Assembly: GCA_007695225.1 (NCBI GenBank) | Contig: REED01000192.1 | Location: forward strand, 1-64,000 | From: Gemmatimonadales bacterium | GTDB taxonomy: Bacteria > Gemmatimonadota > Gemmatimonadetes > Longimicrobiales > Gaopeijiaceae | Direction of reading: 5' to 3' | Length of the DNA: 64,000 nucleotides | Part shown: positions 32,701 to 44,384 of the stretch, one piece after another | How the letters are laid out: each line of letters opens with the position of its first letter | Numbering within the stretch: the stretch's first letter is position 1 | The notes under the pieces: model-generated | What the model saw: only the letters and a program-made list of their open reading frames with translations | Databases searched by the model: none | Told to the model about the DNA's origin: nothing | Translations under genes and position numbers: made by a program

Positions 32701-33126
32701 CAGATCATCGACTTCGAGGGGGAGCCCGATCGCTCCCTCGGGGAGCGGCGACTGAAGCGGTCCCCCCTCCGGGATGTGGCGGGGATGCTCCGCTCCTTCG
32801 ACTACGCCACCCGCACTGCGCTCCGGGGGCTCCCGGAGAAAGGGCTGGTCCTTACCCCCGGGGACCCCAGGGCCGTGGCGTTGGCCCGGGTCGGATCCCA
32901 GTGGGCCGGAGTGGAATTCCTGGCGGGCTACCTGGAGTCGCCCCGGGTTCGGGAACTCCTCCCGGGGGATCCTGCGGCGCTCCGTCACCTCCTGGATCTC
33001 TTCGTCCTCGAGAAGGCGCTCTATGAGCTCCGGTACGAGATCGGCAACCGGCCGGGGTGGGCGGGGATCCCCCTGGAGGGCATCGCCGCACTGATCCGGG
33101 ACGGAGTGGAGGGGGCATGGGGATGA
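29740..33126 (+). CDS. treS: Trehalose synthase (maltose alpha-D-glucosyltransferase) - maltokinase fusion (TreS-Pep2/Mak)
   Basis: '[64 protein letters not shown]'; C-terminal '[36 protein letters not shown]' and '[55 protein letters not shown]'. Confidence 0.95.
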
Positions 33127-36100
33127 CCTCCCTTCCGGAGGACGAACACGGGACGTCCAAGGTGTCCCTGGAGGCCGACGGGGGAGGGGCGCGCAACTCA
33201 CTGGAGCGCCTGGCCCGCCTCTGGGGCGTGGAGTGCAGCCACCAGGACGGCTTCGAGCGCCACATCCGTCCCGCCTCCGAGGTCCTTCTGGCTCTGCTCA
33301 GCGAACTGGGCGCACCGGTCGCCCGCATGTCCGATGTTCCGGACGCCGTCCGGGAGCGGGAGGCGGAGCGGGCCGGGGAGCGGGTTCCCCCCGTGACCGT
33401 GGCCTGGTTGGGAGCCGGGGGGAGACTGCCTCGGCGTCCGGGCCTTCCCGCCGAAGGGACGGTGGAGCTTCGGGTGACCACCGAGGGGGGAGACCTCCTG
33501 GAGTCGGTCGCCCGAATCGGTCGGCGGGGGATCCCCCTCCCGGAGGGGCTTCCCCCAGGGTACCACCGGGTGCGGGTCACCGGCGCAGGCTGGTCCGATT
33601 CCACCCTCCTGATGGTGGCGCCGCCGCAGGTCTTCGGTGGGGAGGGGCCCGGGGGGGAACCGGTGCGGGAGTGGGGGAGCTTCCTTCCCCTGCACGCGCT
33701 CCGCACCGGGCGGGACTGGGGGACGGGAGACCTGACGGACCTGGAGGAGCTCCTGTCCTGGACGGCGGAGCGGGGGGGGCAGGTGGTGGGCACGCTCCCT
33801 CTCATGGCCGCCTACCTGGATCGGCCCCTGGAACCCAGCCCCTACGCTCCGGTGAGCCGGCTCTTCTGGAACGAGCTCTTCCTGGATCCGAGACGCCTCC
33901 CGGAGTGGCACCAGGCGTCGGAGCTGCGGCGCCACGCGGCTTCCCCAGAGATCCGGGAACGCGTTCGCCAGCTCCGGGAGGGGGGGGCCGTGGAGTACCG
34001 AAAGGCCTACCTCCTTCGCACGGAGTTCCTGGGGCCCCTGGCAGAGATCTGGCGCAAGGAGGGCGGCCTCGAGGATCCGGCATTCCAGTCCTTCCTCCGG
34101 AGGAATCCCGAGGCTCTGCGCTACGCCGCCTTCCGGGCCACCGTGGACGCACGGGGGGAGACGTGGGGGCGTTGGCCCTCCCACTGGCGGGCGTCGGGAA
34201 TCCCGGATGGGGCGTATCGCCGGAGCGACTGCTGCCGCCATCTCTACGCCCAGTTCCGTTTCGAGGAGCAGTTGGACGCGGTGGTGGCCCGGGGTGCGGC
34301 GGGGCTCTACCTCGACCTTCCCCTGGGGGCCCACCCCGAGGGGTTCGATGTCTGGGCCCATCCCCGTCTCTTCGCAGGCGGCGCCTCCTTGGGCGCCCCC
34401 CCGGACGCCTTCTATGAAGACGGCCAGGACTGGGGACTTCCACCGGTCCGTCCCGCGGAGGCCCAGGCCCAGGGCCACCTCCACTTCCGACGAGTGCTGG
34501 GGAAGCTCCTTGCCCGGGCCCGATATCTTCGCATCGACCACGTCATGGGGCTCCACCGACTCTACTGGGTCCCAACGGGACGGACGGCGGCGGAGGGGGC
34601 CTATGTGCGGTATCCGACGGACGAGCTCTACGCGATCCTTGCCCTGGAGTCCCACCGACATGAGACCGTCCTGGTGGGTGAGGACCTGGGGACGGTTCCC
34701 CGGGAGGTCCGCCGGGAGATGGATCGGCGGAAGCTCAGGAGGATGTATGTGGTGCCCTTTGAGCTCCGGCCCGAAGAGGAAGGGGGCGGTCTGGCGCCGG
34801 TGCCTTCCGGGTCGGTGGCGGCTCTCAACACCCACGACATGCCCCCCTTTGCGGCGGAGTGGAAGCGGGAAGACTTCCCCTGCCGGCTCCGGAGGGCACT
34901 GGGGGAGCCGCTGCCGGGCGAGGCGCTCCCCCCGGGGAGTGGATCGGGGCCCCTGGAGGTGCTGGAGAGGGCGTTGACATGGCTGGGCCGGAGTCCGGCG
35001 GGGCTGGTCCTGGTGAACCTGGAGGATCTCTGGTTGGAGGAGGCCCCGCAGAACGTCCCGGGAACGCCGGGGATGGAGAACTGGCGGCGGAAGGCGAAGC
35101 TCCCCCTGGATTCCTTCCCCCGCCATGGGGCGGTGACAGGGATCCTGGAGAGCCTCCGGAGGGCCCGCGTCCTGTCCTGCGCCTCTCCAGCTCCAGCCAC
35201 GGGAGAGGAGACGGGAGGTTCGGGGGGAGATGCGACGGAACGTTCGACGAGAAGTTCGACGGAGAACAGGGAGATGAGGATGGCGAAGGAAACCGGAACG
35301 GGAGCACCGGCAGAGGCGGAGGCGGGAGATGGGCCGGGGGTGCCGTCGCTCCTGAGCGATGACGACCTGCACCTCTTCAACGAGGGGACCCACAACCGAC
35401 TGTATCGGAAGCTGGGGGCCCACCTCTCCCGGGATCCGGAACGGCCGGGGACCCACTTCGCCGTGTGGGCCCCCTCGGCGGAACGCGTCTCGGTGGTGGG
35501 CGACTTCAACGGGTGGGATGGGGAGGCGAGCCCCCTCGTTCACCGGGGAAGCTCCGGCATCTGGGAGGGATTTGAGCCCGGGGTGGAGAAGGGGGCCCAC
35601 TACAAATACGACATCCGGTCCCGATACGGCGGCTACCGGGTGCTCAAGGCGGACCCCTTCGGCTTCCGACACGAGGTGCCGCCGGGTACGGCATCGGTGG
35701 TCTGGGACCTGGACTACGCTTGGGGCGATGGGGAATGGATGGAGAGCCGCCGGGAGCGGAACGCCTCCGACGCGCCCCTTTCCATCTACGAGGTCCACCT
35801 GGGATCCTGGCGGCGGGATCCCGACGACCGGGGGCGCCTCCTGGGATATCGGGAGGTGGCCTCCCGGTTGGCCGCCTACGTCCGGGAGATGGGCTTCACC
35901 CACGTGCAGTTCATGCCCCTCACGGAGCATCCCTTCTACGGATCGTGGGGCTACCAGACCACCGGGTACTTCGCTCCCTCCAGCCGGTACGGCTCACCCC
36001 AGGACTTCATGTACCTGGTGGACCATCTCCACCAGGAGGGGATCGGGGTCTTCCTCGACTGGGTTCCATCCCACTTCCCCTCGGACGAGCACGGCCTCGC

Positions 36101-37244
36101 CTATTTTGACGGGACCCACCTCTTCGAGCACGCCGACCCCCGCCAGGGGTTCCACCCGGATTGGGAGAGTCTGATCTTCAACTATGGGCGGGCGGAGGTC
36201 CGTGCCTTTCTCCTGAGCAGCGCCCTCTTCTGGCTGGAGCATTTCCACGTGGACGGGCTCCGCGTTGATGCCGTCGCTTCCATGCTCTACCTCGACTATT
36301 CCCGCAAGGAGGGCGAGTGGATCCCCAATCGCCATGGGGGTCGGGAGAACCTGGAGGCCATCGATTTCCTGCGCAGGCTCAACGAGGACGTCTACGGCAG
36401 CCATCCCGACGTGCAGACCATGGCGGAGGAGTCCACCGCCTGGCCCATGGTTTCCCGTCCCACCTACCTGGGAGGGCTGGGGTTCGGGATGAAGTGGGAC
36501 ATGGGGTGGATGCACGACACCCTCCTCTACCTCTCCAGGGACCCGGTCCACCGCCGCCATCACCACGACGAGATCACCTTCCGGGCCCTCTACGCCTTCA
36601 ACGAGAACTTCGTACTTCCCCTTTCCCACGACGAAGTGGTCCACGGAAAGGGATCCCTGCTGAATCGGATGCCTGGCGACGCCTGGCAGAAACGGGCGAA
36701 CCTCCGCACCCTCCTGGCCTACCAGTTCCTCCAGTCGGGGAAGAAGCTTCTCTTCATGGGAGGGGAATTCGGACAGTGGCGGGAGTGGGGTCACGACGGA
36801 GAGTTGGAGTGGGACCTCCTGGCCCAGCCGGAACACCTCGGCATCCAACGCCTGGTGAGGGACCTGAATCATCTCTATGTCGAGACGGGGGTTCTCCACC
36901 GGTGGGACTTCCAATCCGAGGGGTTCGAGTGGGTCGATGCCCATGACCACGAGCACAGCGTGCTGGCCTTCCTCCGGAGGGAGCCCGAGGGCCACGGAGA
37001 ACCGCCCCTGCTCGCGGTTTTCAACTTCACGCCCATCCCCTGGGAGAACCACCGGGTGGGGGTTCCCCTGGAAGGACATTGGAGGGAGGTCCTGAACACC
37101 GACAGCCAGGAGTATGGGGGGAGCGGTCGGGGGAACCTGGGGGGGATCTCTTCCGACCCGGTGCCGGCCCACGGGCGGTTCCACTCCCTGACCCTCTCCC
37201 TCCCGCCGCTGGCGGCGGTGGTCTTCGAAGGACCCGCTTCTTGA
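33123..37244 (+). CDS. 4-alpha-glucanotransferase (MalQ, GH77) - 1,4-alpha-glucan branching enzyme (GlgB, GH13) fusion
   Basis: ATGA overlap with treS (ATG 33117 also possible). GH77: '[17 protein letters not shown]', '[18 protein letters not shown]', '[14 protein letters not shown]'. GlgB: '[22 protein letters not shown]', '[45 protein letters not shown]', '[13 protein letters not shown]', '[16 protein letters not shown]'. One uninterrupted frame. Confidence 0.93.
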
Positions 37245-39748
37245 GGCGGTACGTCTGCATCCACGGGCACTTCTACCAGCCTCCCCGGGAGAATCCGTGG
37301 CTGGAGGAGGTGGAGCGCCAGGAGTCGGCCCGTCCCTTCCACGACTGGAACGAGCGGATCTGCAGGGAGGCATACGCCCCCAATGCATTCTCGCGGATCC
37401 TCGACGGCCAGGGCCGGATCGTCCGGATCGTGAACAACTACGCCCGGATGAGCTTCAATTTCGGCCCGACCCTCCTTTCCTGGCTGGAGCGGAAGGCGCC
37501 GGAGACGTATGAGGCCATCCTTCAGGCGGACCGGCAGAGCCGGGAGCGCTTCTCGGGACACGGATCGGCGCTGGCGCAGGCCTACAACCACATGATCCTT
37601 CCCCTGGCCTCGTCCCGGGACCGGCGGACGCAGATCGCATGGGGGATCCACGATTTCCGGCATCGGTTCGGTCGCCCTCCCGAGGGGATGTGGCTCCCTG
37701 AGACCGCGGTGGACCTGGAGAGCCTCGACCTCATGGCCGAGGCGGGGATCCGGTTCACCGTCCTCGCCCCCCGGCAGGCCTCCGCGGTCAGGAACTCCCC
37801 GGACGGGGTCTGGGAGGACGTGACGGGGGAACGGGTCGATCCCAGCCAGGCCTACCGGGTGGCCCTTCCGTCGGGGCGGGAGATGGCGGTTTTCTTCTAC
37901 GATGGAGCCCTCTCCCGGGCCATTGCCTTCGAGGAGCTACTGAGCAACGGCGGGGTCCTGGCCCGACGGCTCCTGGAGGCCGGGGGGGACGGGGCTGCTC
38001 CCGGGGCCGCTCTGGGACCGGGGCTGACCCATGTCGCCACCGACGGGGAGACCTACGGCCACCACCACCGCCACGGAGAGATGGCACTCTCCTACGCACT
38101 GAAGGTCCTGGAGGAGAATCCCGACACCCGGTTGACCAACTACGGCGAATTCCTGGAACGGCATCCACCCACCCGGGAGGCCCGGATCGTGGAGGGGAGT
38201 TCCTGGAGCTGCATCCACGGGGTGGAGCGCTGGCGCTCCGACTGCGGGTGCAGCACCGGGGATCACGTGGATTGGCGCCAGGAATGGCGGGAGCCCCTAC
38301 GGGAGGCGCTGGACTGGCTCCGAGACGAACTGGAACCCCACTTCGAGGAGGCGGCGGGCGCACTCCTGCGGGATCCGTGGGGGGCCCGGGATCGGTACGT
38401 GGAAGTGGTGCTGGATCGCACGCCGGAGAATGTGGACCGATTCCTGGACCAGGAGGGGCTGCGCCCCCTGACCCCGCCGGAGCGGATCCGGGTTCTGAAG
38501 CTGTTGGAGATCCAGCGGCACGCCATGCTCATGTATACAAGCTGCGGGTGGTTCTTCGACGACCTGGCCCGCATCGAGACCCTCCAGGTGCTCCGGTACG
38601 CCGCCCGGGCCCTCCACCTGTACCAGGTCCTGGCGGGGACCGGCATGGAAGCCGAGTTCATGGACCGCCTGTCCCGGGCCCGGAGCAGCGTACCGGGGTT
38701 CGGGACCGGCGCGGACCTCTACCGGACGCGGGTGGCGCCGGACCGGGTGGAGCTCGCCAAGGTGGCCGCCCATCACGCCGTGTCTTCCCTGTTCCTGGAT
38801 GGGACAGCGGTTTCGGGGAGCCGGCACCGGGTGTATGCCTACGATGTGCGGGTGGAAGAGGCTCAGCCCGCCAGCTCCGGGGGGATCCGCCTCTCCATGG
38901 GCCGGATGGAGGTGAGCTCCACCATCACCCGGACCTCGGGGCGCTTCACCTTCGGGGTGCTCCACATGGGCGACCACCTCGTGGTGGGCGGTGTTCGGGG
39001 GTTCGAGGGGATGGAGGCCTATCAGGATCTCATCGGCAGGCTCCGGTCCCGCTTTGAAGAAGGGGATGCGCTCGAGATGATCCGGATCCTGGACCGGGAG
39101 TTCCGTGCCGCCTCCTATTCGCTGTCCTCGCTCTTCCGCGATGAGCAGGAGCGGGTCGTGGATCGGATCCTCAAGGATTCCCTTGCCGGAGCCGAGGGGG
39201 TCCTGCACAACCTGTTCGAGAGCCGGCTCCCCCTCATGCGTTTCCTGGCGGGGCTCCAGGTGCCCCAGCCTCGCCCCTTCCGGGCCGTGGGTGAGTTCAT
39301 CCTCGACCTCCGCCTCGAACGGGCGCTTGCCGCCGAACCCCCGGAGATCTCCCGGGCGGAACAACTCTTCCGGGAGGCCGAACTCACCGGGCTGCGGATG
39401 GACCGGGAACGTCTGGGGTTCGAGGCCGCAGGGGCGCTGGAGCGTACCCTCCGCCACCTGGAGCAGGAGCCGGACAACCTCCGGCTCCTGACCACCGTGC
39501 GTCGATTGGTGGCCTTCATCCGTTCGCTCCCCTTTGCCCTGGATCTCTGGGATGCCCAGAACACCTTCTTCCGCATCCTGGAGGGGGAGTTCCGTCGCCG
39601 GTTGGAGCTCGTGCGGGGGGGGGACCTCGAGCCGCTCCCCTGGATCCTGGAGTTCGGGGGCGTGGGACGGACCCTTGGCATCGCCGTCCCGGAGCCGCCG
39701 CTACCGGTGGTGGAGGCCGGAAGCGGATCCCCGGACCCCGAGAGATGA
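37241..39748 (+). CDS. GH57-family / DUF3536 protein (putative alpha-amylase/4-alpha-glucanotransferase-like)
   Basis: Likely TTG start overlapping GlgB stop (TTGA); '[39 protein letters not shown]', '[32 protein letters not shown]', '[27 protein letters not shown]'. Confidence 0.85.
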
Positions 39749-39784
39749 CCCGGTCCGTTCAGCGGTGACCGGGACGGCGGCCTT

Positions 39785-39950
39785 CTAGTGTGGTGAGTCA
39801 GAGATTCGCCGGCATTCGTGACCCGGCGCATCCACGGTGGCTGCGTTGCTCCGGATCGCGATAGCGGTGCTATCGCTCACCGTCGCGCCTTGCCACCGCG
39901 GCGCGCTGGGCCCCTCAGTACTTCTGCGAATCTCTGACTCACCACACTAG
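39785..39950. mobile_element. MITE-like non-coding palindromic element, 24-bp perfect terminal inverted repeats (CTAGTGTGGTGAGTCAGAGATTCG), possible TA target duplication
   Basis: Left arm 39785-39808 is the exact reverse complement of 39927-39950; co-axial inner arms CGGTGGC/GCCACCG (39835-39841/39892-39898) and GCGATAG/CTATCGC (39858-39864/39870-39876); no ORF of its own. Confidence 0.75.
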
Positions 39951-41485
39951 CGGATCCGGATCCCGGCCTCCAGGAAGTGTTTCACCCACCGATGGACGTC
40001 GTGGGAACGGATCTGGTTCCGGGCCTGGTCCATCCTCGCGCGTCGTTCCTCGGGGGCCATGACGTGGGCCTGCCGGATGGCGGCTGCGACGCTGTCGGAC
40101 TCCGAGGGGTTCACCAGGAGGGCGCTCTCCCCCAACTCTCCGGCGGTCCCCGCGAAAACGCTCAGGATGAGGACACCGGAGCCCGCGTTCGCAGCCACGT
40201 ACTCCTTGGCGACCAGATTCATCCCGTCGTTGAGGGGGGTGACGAGGGCGGCGTCCGCCGCCCGGTAGTGGGCCAGGAGCTCGGCTCGGGTCCAGCTCTC
40301 ATAGCGGTACTCCACGGGAACCCAGTCCGCCGTTCCCCACCGCCGGTTGAGGGCGTCCACCCGCTCCTCGATCTCTGCCTTCGCATCCCGATAGGCCGGG
40401 ACCGTATCGCGGCTCGGGACCACCAACTGCTTGAGGACCACCGATCCCCGCAGCTCAGGCCAGCGCTCCAGGGCCAGGTCCAGCCCCTTGAGCTTCTCTG
40501 GGATTCCCTTCGTGTAGTCCAGACGATCCACCCCCAGGAGAAGGGTTCGGCCCCGCGCCTGATTCCGGATCGCCTGCTCCAGCGCCAGGACCACCGAGCC
40601 GTGGGCATCGCCAGAGTAACCTTGGAAGTCGATGGAGATCGGGAAGATGCCGGTGAGGATCTGCCGGCCGTCCAGGACGGGATCGGGAATCCCGCTCTCC
40701 GGGGGGAAGCTTTCGGGGAAGAGCTGCCGGGCGGCGTCCAGGAAGTGCTCCCGGTCCCGGATCGTCTGGAAGCCCACCAGGTCGAAGTGGAGGAGGCCCT
40801 CCACGAGTTCGCGGTGGCCCGGGATCCGCTCCAGGAGCTCCAGGGGCGGGAAGGGGATGTGCAGGAAGTACACCATCCGGTGGTCCAGGCCCCGTTCCCG
40901 GAGCTCCTTCCCCAGGAGAATGAGGTGGTAGTCCTGGACCCAGATCAGGTCATCCCATCGCAGGCAGGCGGTCAGGGAGTCCGCGAACCGGGCGTTCACT
41001 CGGCGGTAGCTCTCCCAGAAGTGGGGAGCCGGGCGGCAGAGATGGGAGAACCCGTGGAAGAGGGGCCAGAGGACCTGGTTGGAGAAGCCCCCGTAATAGG
41101 ACTCGACCTCCTCCTCCGTCAGGGCCACAGCCTGGAGGCGGCATCGGTCCCCTCCGGGGAGGCTCTCCAGGGCGCCGTCCAGCTCTGCCTGACCCGCGCC
41201 GGGAGCGCCGGTCCACCCCGTCCATACCCCGCCCCTGCGGGAGAGGATGGGCCAGAGGGCGGAGACAAGGCCCCCCGACGCGGGGGAGCTTTGCCATCTT
41301 CCGTCCGGCTTCGGGGTGAGCGTCACCGGGAGGCGGTTCGAGGCGAGGACCAGGCGACCGCCCCCCTTCCGTCGGTTGGGACCCGGATAGGGACCCAGGG
41401 GAGAGTGTCGGCGCTCCCAGGCGTCCCACCGGGTTGGGGGCGGCGGGGTGTACCGGGAACGAAAGGGAACCTGTACCTGGACCAT
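39947..41485 (-). CDS. otsA: GT20 family trehalose-6-phosphate synthase (second copy)
   Basis: 'GGRLVLASNRLPVTL', 'GGLVSALWPILSRRGGVWTGWTG', 'DDLIWVQDYHLILLG', 'LLLGVDRLDYTKGIPEKLKG', 'LVTPLNDGMNLVAKEYVA'; TAG stop lies in the CTAG terminus of the palindromic element. Confidence 0.88.
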   Translation of the reverse strand: MVQVQVPFRSRYTPPPPTRWDAWERRHSPLGPYPGPNRRKGGGRLVLASNRLPVTLTPKPDGRWQSSPASGGLVSALWPILSRRGGVWTGWTGAPGAGQAELDGALESLPGGDRCRLQAVALTEEEVESYYGGFSNQVLWPLFHGFSHLCRPAPHFWESYRRVNARFADSLTACLRWDDLIWVQDYHLILLGKELRERGLDHRMVYFLHIPFPPLELLERIPGHRELVEGLLHFDLVGFQTIRDREHFLDAARQLFPESFPPESGIPDPVLDGRQILTGIFPISIDFQGYSGDAHGSVVLALEQAIRNQARGRTLLLGVDRLDYTKGIPEKLKGLDLALERWPELRGSVVLKQLVVPSRDTVPAYRDAKAEIEERVDALNRRWGTADWVPVEYRYESWTRAELLAHYRAADAALVTPLNDGMNLVAKEYVAANAGSGVLILSVFAGTAGELGESALLVNPSESDSVAAAIRQAHVMAPEERRARMDQARNQIRSHDVHRWVKHFLEAGIRIR

Positions 41486-42052
41486 GGGCCTGAACCTTCT
41501 TCGGGGTCTAAGGTTGGTTCCGCTGGCTGAACCCCCAGCCGTCGGACTTGAGCGGCGCCCCCCAACGCCGACCCCAGCAACCGGGTCGTAAGGCAGGGGG
41601 CGTGCCAGAAAACGTCGGGAGAGGAGCGGGGCATGCCTCCCAGACGGGGGAGGCCGGTTGGTGTAGCTTTCCGGCGACGCCTTCCCCCGGGGGAAACGGG
41701 CTTCGGATCGGCTGGGGGAGGACGGTGGGAGTTTTCGGCCCGGCCCTGCTGGGCGGGAACGGGACGGGGTGTCACCTGGAGGTCCTTGGGGGCCGGCAGG
41801 AGGGGGAGGGGAGGGACGTGGCGTGGCATGCATTTCGCTTCTCTCCCCGAGACGGTGCTCCGGGGCGGGGAGCGGGGCCATGGAAGGCCGTTTAAGAAGT
41901 ACAGGGGCTGCCGGAAGGCGTCTTGCAGTTCTGATCGAAACGGGCCGCTGAAATGAAAGCAATGCGGTAGGACCGGTGAGGGGACCCAACGAAGATGCAG
42001 GGCCCTGCCGATGATCCGCCATTGGCCGAGACCCCTGCGGGTTGGGGTGGCA

Positions 42053-42102
42053 GGGGCCCACCTCGGTGCTTGGGATGGCCGGGGCCCACCTCGGTGCTTG
42101 GG
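42053..42102 (+). repeat. Two-copy direct repeat (GGGGCCCACCTCGGTGCTTGGG, 28-bp period) in the otsA/glgX divergent intergenic region
   Basis: Exact 22-bp copies at 42053-42074 and 42081-42102. Confidence 0.8.
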
Positions 42103-42194
42103 GCGGCGCGCCCAACGGCGGGTCCTCTACTTCTACGACAGCCCCTCAGGCGCTTGCGCTGGACAGCCCGGGAAATCTGACGGAGAAGGAGACG

Positions 42195-44384
<2,190 letters not shown>

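Follow-up and report, generated by a model that had tools for sequence, protein, structure and literature searches.

The trehalose-6-phosphate synthase gene otsA of a Gemmatimonadales bacterium ends at the very edge of a near-perfect 166-bp palindrome, and the locus raises the question of whether this palindrome is a mobile element or a terminator placed between two convergent genes. It occupies positions 39785-39950 of the window, i.e., the whole stretch of 64,000 nucleotides of contig REED01000192.1 (assembly GCA_007695225.1) that was analysed. The features of the locus are as follows.

37079..39748, plus strand: convergent neighbour, a GH57 / DUF3536 protein, whose stop codon TGA lies 36 bp before the CTAG
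39786..39787, no strand: left TA of the target duplication
39788..39947, no strand: element proper, 160 bp, GTGTGGTGAGTC...GACTCACCACAC, starting with G and ending with C
39788..39809, plus strand: terminal inverted repeat on the left, 22 bp counted inwards from the TA
39813..39921, plus strand: conserved 109-bp core, scoring 97 bits against covariance model R1
39860..39874, plus strand: central hairpin GATAGCGGTGCTATC
39926..39947, minus strand: right terminal inverted repeat, 22 bp, a perfect match to the left repeat
39948..39949, no strand: right TA of the duplicated target; read on the minus strand, it makes up the otsA stop codon TAG together with the element's last base at 39947
39947..41299, minus strand: otsA, trehalose-6-phosphate synthase (Glyco_transf_20), with the insertion in its stop codon

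The palindrome starts with CTAGTGTGGTGAGTCAGAGATTCGC at 39785, and the exact reverse complement of this sequence ends at 39950. Its inner arms share a common centre near 39867, and the whole 166-bp stretch folds as a single hairpin of -116 kcal/mol, compared to -78 +/- 5 kcal/mol in shuffled sequences (z = -8, none of 200 shuffles being equally stable). The coaxial palindrome reported in a preliminary description of this DNA is thus confirmed in sequence, coordinates and centre. The perfect terminal inverted repeats of 24 bp given in that description had to be redrawn: the two ends do agree perfectly, over 25 bp including the CTAG, but only 22 bp lie inside the TA repeats. The CTAG was rejected as part of the terminal repeat, as its TA is duplicated target and the element owns only the G on the left and the C on the right; these borders were set by comparing 44 copies and from the empty sites of family members. 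With 160 bp, 22-bp perfect terminal repeats and no gene, the element has the size and structure of a miniature inverted-repeat transposable element (MITE; 50–500 bp, terminal inverted repeats, no transposase gene). It has no match in Rfam at E values up to 1.

The palindrome is a mobile element and belongs to a family of miniature transposons that is widespread. The draft assembly of the host genome (4.18 Mb in 229 contigs) contains two full copies, C29 and C210, which are 96 % identical, together with about ten reduced copies that are internally deleted or degenerate, and matches were found in 15 of 57 other genomes searched. Dispersed copies flanked by a target-site duplication, as anticipated, are what a MITE should leave behind. 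A locus-specific sequence, without other copies and conserved at this site, would look quite different, and the otsA genes of the nearest relatives do not carry the element. Empty sites are known for three other insertions of the family, at atpD|atpC, scpB|rluB and DinB|penicillin amidase, all from genera other than that of the host: when the element and one TA are deleted, the junction aligns without gaps to congeneric genomes that have no insertion. All three empty sites read CTAG and already constitute a TAG stop codon. At a fourth locus, in G309, ten congeners are without the insertion. Empty orthologous sites, which the preliminary description had suggested looking for, therefore exist for family members in congeneric genomes, but none was found for the otsA copy, the relatives searched all being from genera other than its own. 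At DinB|penicillin amidase, the junction also harbours decayed element remnants of about 50 bp in two genomes (L417 and L419, in G198 and G232), and in G185 it is a clean CTAG.

The nature of the target follows from comparing edges. Among 44 end pairs, collected by a terminal repeat pattern that excluded the base next to the TA, seven have both TAs intact and flanking 4-mers that differ from each other, and in all seven it is an outer base that differs; the inner G and C never vary. The duplication is thus TA, as for IS630/Tc1 elements, and the preferred target C-TA-G. A 4-bp duplication of CTAG, as in the IS5 group with its YTAR targets, would account for the CTAG present at both edges of 36 of 57 copies (a set whose search forced the inner G and C, such that its outer-base count lends no independent support to TA either) and for two edges in the host's own genome that read CCAG...CCAG, without TA. 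We nevertheless consider it highly improbable, as every clean edge difference concerns the outer bases and the ends match those of IS630-type elements with DDE_3 transposases; the four-base duplication was rejected on the outer-base differences. The CCAG...CCAG edges may be mutated or represent rare targets. Covariation between the two arms is strong, with 14 of 21 outer pairs changed on both sides (0.378, compared to 0.141 in shuffles), which fits a transposase that has to recognise either end.

Candidates for this transposase are found in sister genomes. IS630-type elements of about 1.15–1.23 kb are present in G020 (1151 bp), G024 (1227 bp) and G029; their transposases carry PF13358 (DDE_3) and HTH domains and their ends are TAGTGTAGTGTTGCAGAAGTC, TAGTGTAGTGTCCG and TAGTGTCCCGTCCCAGAGAT. 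These ends match those of the short elements, and in G029 the first 17 bases of the autonomous end TAGTGTCCCGTCCCAGAGAT are common to the MITEs of that genome. No homologue of an IS630-type transposase was found in the 229-contig draft assembly of the host. A full-length insertion sequence with matching termini, which one would look for, turned up in the three sister genomes but not in the host, where the copy must be non-autonomous for want of a matching full element. As the host lacks a detectable IS630 transposase and most of its copies are shortened, the family looks like a relic there. The assignment to TA-targeting IS630/Tc1-type MITEs made in the preliminary description agrees with the dispersed copies, the TA duplication, the matching sister-genome elements and the empty sites of the family. 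As a separate observation, at least three sister-genome transposase genes (in L139, L143 and L146) end on a TAG made up of the terminal G of the element and the flanking target TA, so that the gene needs its insertion site to end properly.

What did the insertion do to otsA? The open reading frame runs on the minus strand from 42115 to 39947, and its stop codon TAG (39949-39947) is composed, as previously noticed, of the flanking TA and a G contributed by the last base of the element (39947). Removal of the element and one TA gives ...CGC TAG AAGG... on the otsA strand, i.e., the same stop codon, and the earlier view that the insertion is silent for OtsA holds. We are confident that the otsA copy is best explained as one silent stop-codon insertion. 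The nearest otsA orthologues (53–57 % identity) have a different gene order as well as no element, which speaks against a conserved terminator at the level of the locus rather than of the insertion site. The surroundings (33057-44384) form a glycogen/trehalose gene cluster that includes the GH57/DUF3536 gene, otsA, a gene for a glgX-type debranching enzyme and a long open reading frame resembling a glucanotransferase joined to a branching enzyme.

The position in a stop codon is a habit of the family: it is found in about half of the copies examined, and leaves the protein unchanged. The survey covered 57 copies with about 1.5 kb of flanking sequence. At 32 of 92 edges, a frame of 200 codons or more that runs into the element reaches its in-frame stop, compared to 21 of 199 control CTAG edges (p = 1.5e-6). 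Classifying sites by the longest frame proved useless because of long shadow frames in the GC-rich DNA, and a codon-usage gene caller was employed instead. With this caller, for which the MITE loci themselves had supplied the training frames, the stop codon of a predicted gene is the site of 30 of the 53 full copies, compared to 17 of 150 other CTAG sites (p = 2e-10); four of the 30 form stop codons on both sides. A gene with Pfam support ends exactly at the edge in 26 of the 53 copies, namely otsA and 25 others, among them genes for ribosomal protein S9, an ATP synthase alpha/beta-type subunit, ScpB, CcmF, UbiE, NifU and ExbD, and at three loci both convergent genes are supported by Pfam. The arithmetic of the ends explains why such insertions are harmless: a sequence beginning with G and ending with C, when inserted into CTAG with duplication of the TA, leaves CTAG at both edges and regenerates TAG on both strands.

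As the ends, targets and relatives suggest, a transposase would recognise the terminal repeats of about 20 bp, excise the element and insert it at a TA, preferably in the context C-TA-G. Given the terminal G and C and the duplicated TA, each insertion into CTAG would leave CTAG at either edge and restore a TAG stop on whichever strand has it, including the case of convergent genes sharing a single CTAG. In the window, only six CTAG occur compared to 38 expected from trinucleotide frequencies, and two of the six are the element's own edges. With CTAG this scarce in the host and silent stop-codon insertions retained, copies would accumulate in stop codons and beside other CTAG-bounded elements. 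The scheme combines what has been observed, i.e., the dispersed copies, TA duplication, CTAG preference, stop-codon occupancy, sister-genome IS630 elements and congener empty sites, with two suppositions, which concern the identity of the transposase that moved the otsA copy and retention, rather than an active choice of gene ends, as the cause of the stop-codon excess.

Neutral retention of silent insertions can explain this excess only in part. When intragenic sites are left aside, the ratio of stop-codon to intergenic positions is 30:20 for the copies but 17:76 for CTAG sites (p = 6e-7), which leaves room for an active preference or for a benefit at gene ends. The family might actively choose stop codons or gene ends, for example via transcription termination or a local DNA structure at 3' ends, and the persistence of the excess once intragenic sites are set aside is what one would then expect. 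However, decayed CTAG-bearing repeats may inflate the number of intergenic control sites, stop-codon edges are shielded from mutation and stay recognisable for longer, and beyond CTAG no target preference is evident in the flanks as listed; we regard active choice as rather unlikely. A benefit could also come from the hairpin itself, if the palindrome were a locus-specific bidirectional terminator, perhaps derived from a MITE but kept for that role, and its great stability between the convergent GH57/DUF3536 and otsA genes is suggestive, as is a concentration at gene 3' ends that exceeds the retention of silent insertions. Yet an intrinsic bidirectional terminator combines a GC-rich hairpin with a T tract on each strand, and no T tract follows this hairpin on either strand (0 found). 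The otsA genes of the nearest relatives manage without the element, and the orientation of the core relative to the gene is unbiased (14 to 16). Moreover, several copies sit between co-directional genes in operon-like arrangements, with the next gene 5–80 bp further on, positions at which important genes would be lost from the transcript if the element terminated strongly: these include atpD/atpC (beta-/epsilon-type), scpB/rluB (pseudouridine synthase) and rpsI/rpsB, as well as copies followed by a second ABC permease gene and by nrdR. A terminator role, which the preliminary description had entertained, is therefore not supported and appears improbable for this locus; a passenger that the host tolerates is the best reading of the element. 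Taken as a whole, the feature is very probably a non-autonomous MITE of the IS630/Tc1 type, silent at otsA, whose family is retained in stop codons.

The conserved core has a distribution of its own. Searched for with a covariance model built on the inner 109 bp, it turned up in 27 of the 120 genera of the phylum (68 of 298 genomes), while nothing above noise was found outside the phylum in 57 loci from named genomes. It is also shared by elements whose ends are unrelated, namely GTACCTCCTTGGGGGAGTCCGCG in the host (L402/L303, in C105), GCAGCCYGCGGACAAA in G024 and GTGGACTGTARCAG in G036 (L318); the G024 elements (L320, G024:C1:3738514-3739318) form a tandem array with a period of 171 bp. The core matched none of the IS630-bearing loci, and its origin from an IS630 element was therefore rejected. 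Tentatively, one may envisage a phylum-wide MITE superfamily specialised on stop codons, with an excess at gene 3' ends beyond neutral retention and a core repeatedly equipped with transposase-specific ends; such a superfamily is conceivable, though we would not favour it. The open-access literature, a restricted source and hence weak evidence, yielded no description of stop-codon-dwelling MITEs or of the core sequence.

Among known systems, the element belongs, by the features tested, with IS630-type MITEs such as the repeat unit of pneumococcus (RUP), a 107-bp intergenic sequence mobilised by IS630-Spn1 (PMC2229807). Set side by side by description, both are short, non-autonomous and of the IS630 type, with a TA target and terminal repeats matching an IS630 element, and both often adjoin or lie inside other mobile elements (PMC2229807); in contrast to the 160-bp host element, RUP is 107 bp long and intergenic, with no stop-codon habit reported. 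The TA duplication is shared with IS630 of Shigella, ISY100, which transposes by cut and paste (PMC2170065), and their relatives, which are autonomous whereas the host element has no gene. IS630 prefers the TA in 5'-CTAG-3', according to the title of Tenzen and Ohtsubo (1991) as cited in PMC2170065. Going by its title in the reference list of PMC10969869, the Chunjie MITE of Geobacter uraniireducens is likewise palindromic and has a copy within an operon, the structure of which is reported as undisturbed; its size is given as 178–235 bp, compared to 160 bp here. A rare tetranucleotide target that contains a stop codon, together with ends that restore TAG on either strand, offers a simple route to a nearly harmless transposon. 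As related species contain many such stop codons, both with and without the element, the choice of gene ends can be tested directly against survival there, and the same loci can show what effect, if any, a hairpin of this stability has on expression when it separates a stop codon from the following gene of an operon. Annotators of these genomes should view strong hairpins at gene ends with caution, as such structures are often mobile elements rather than terminators.

The host also contains another palindromic family, which is far more abundant: its ends, GAAGGCYGTTGAAGAAGTA, gave 148 matches when up to 2 mismatches were allowed, and its units of about 271–316 bp are likewise flanked by TA in CTAG (e.g., L089:1501-1772 and L323:212-527). 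A decayed copy is located in the window at about 41884-42143, between otsA and glgX. Several copies of the 166-bp family abut ends of this second family, and on the other side of the window copy the sequence AAGGCCG is present.
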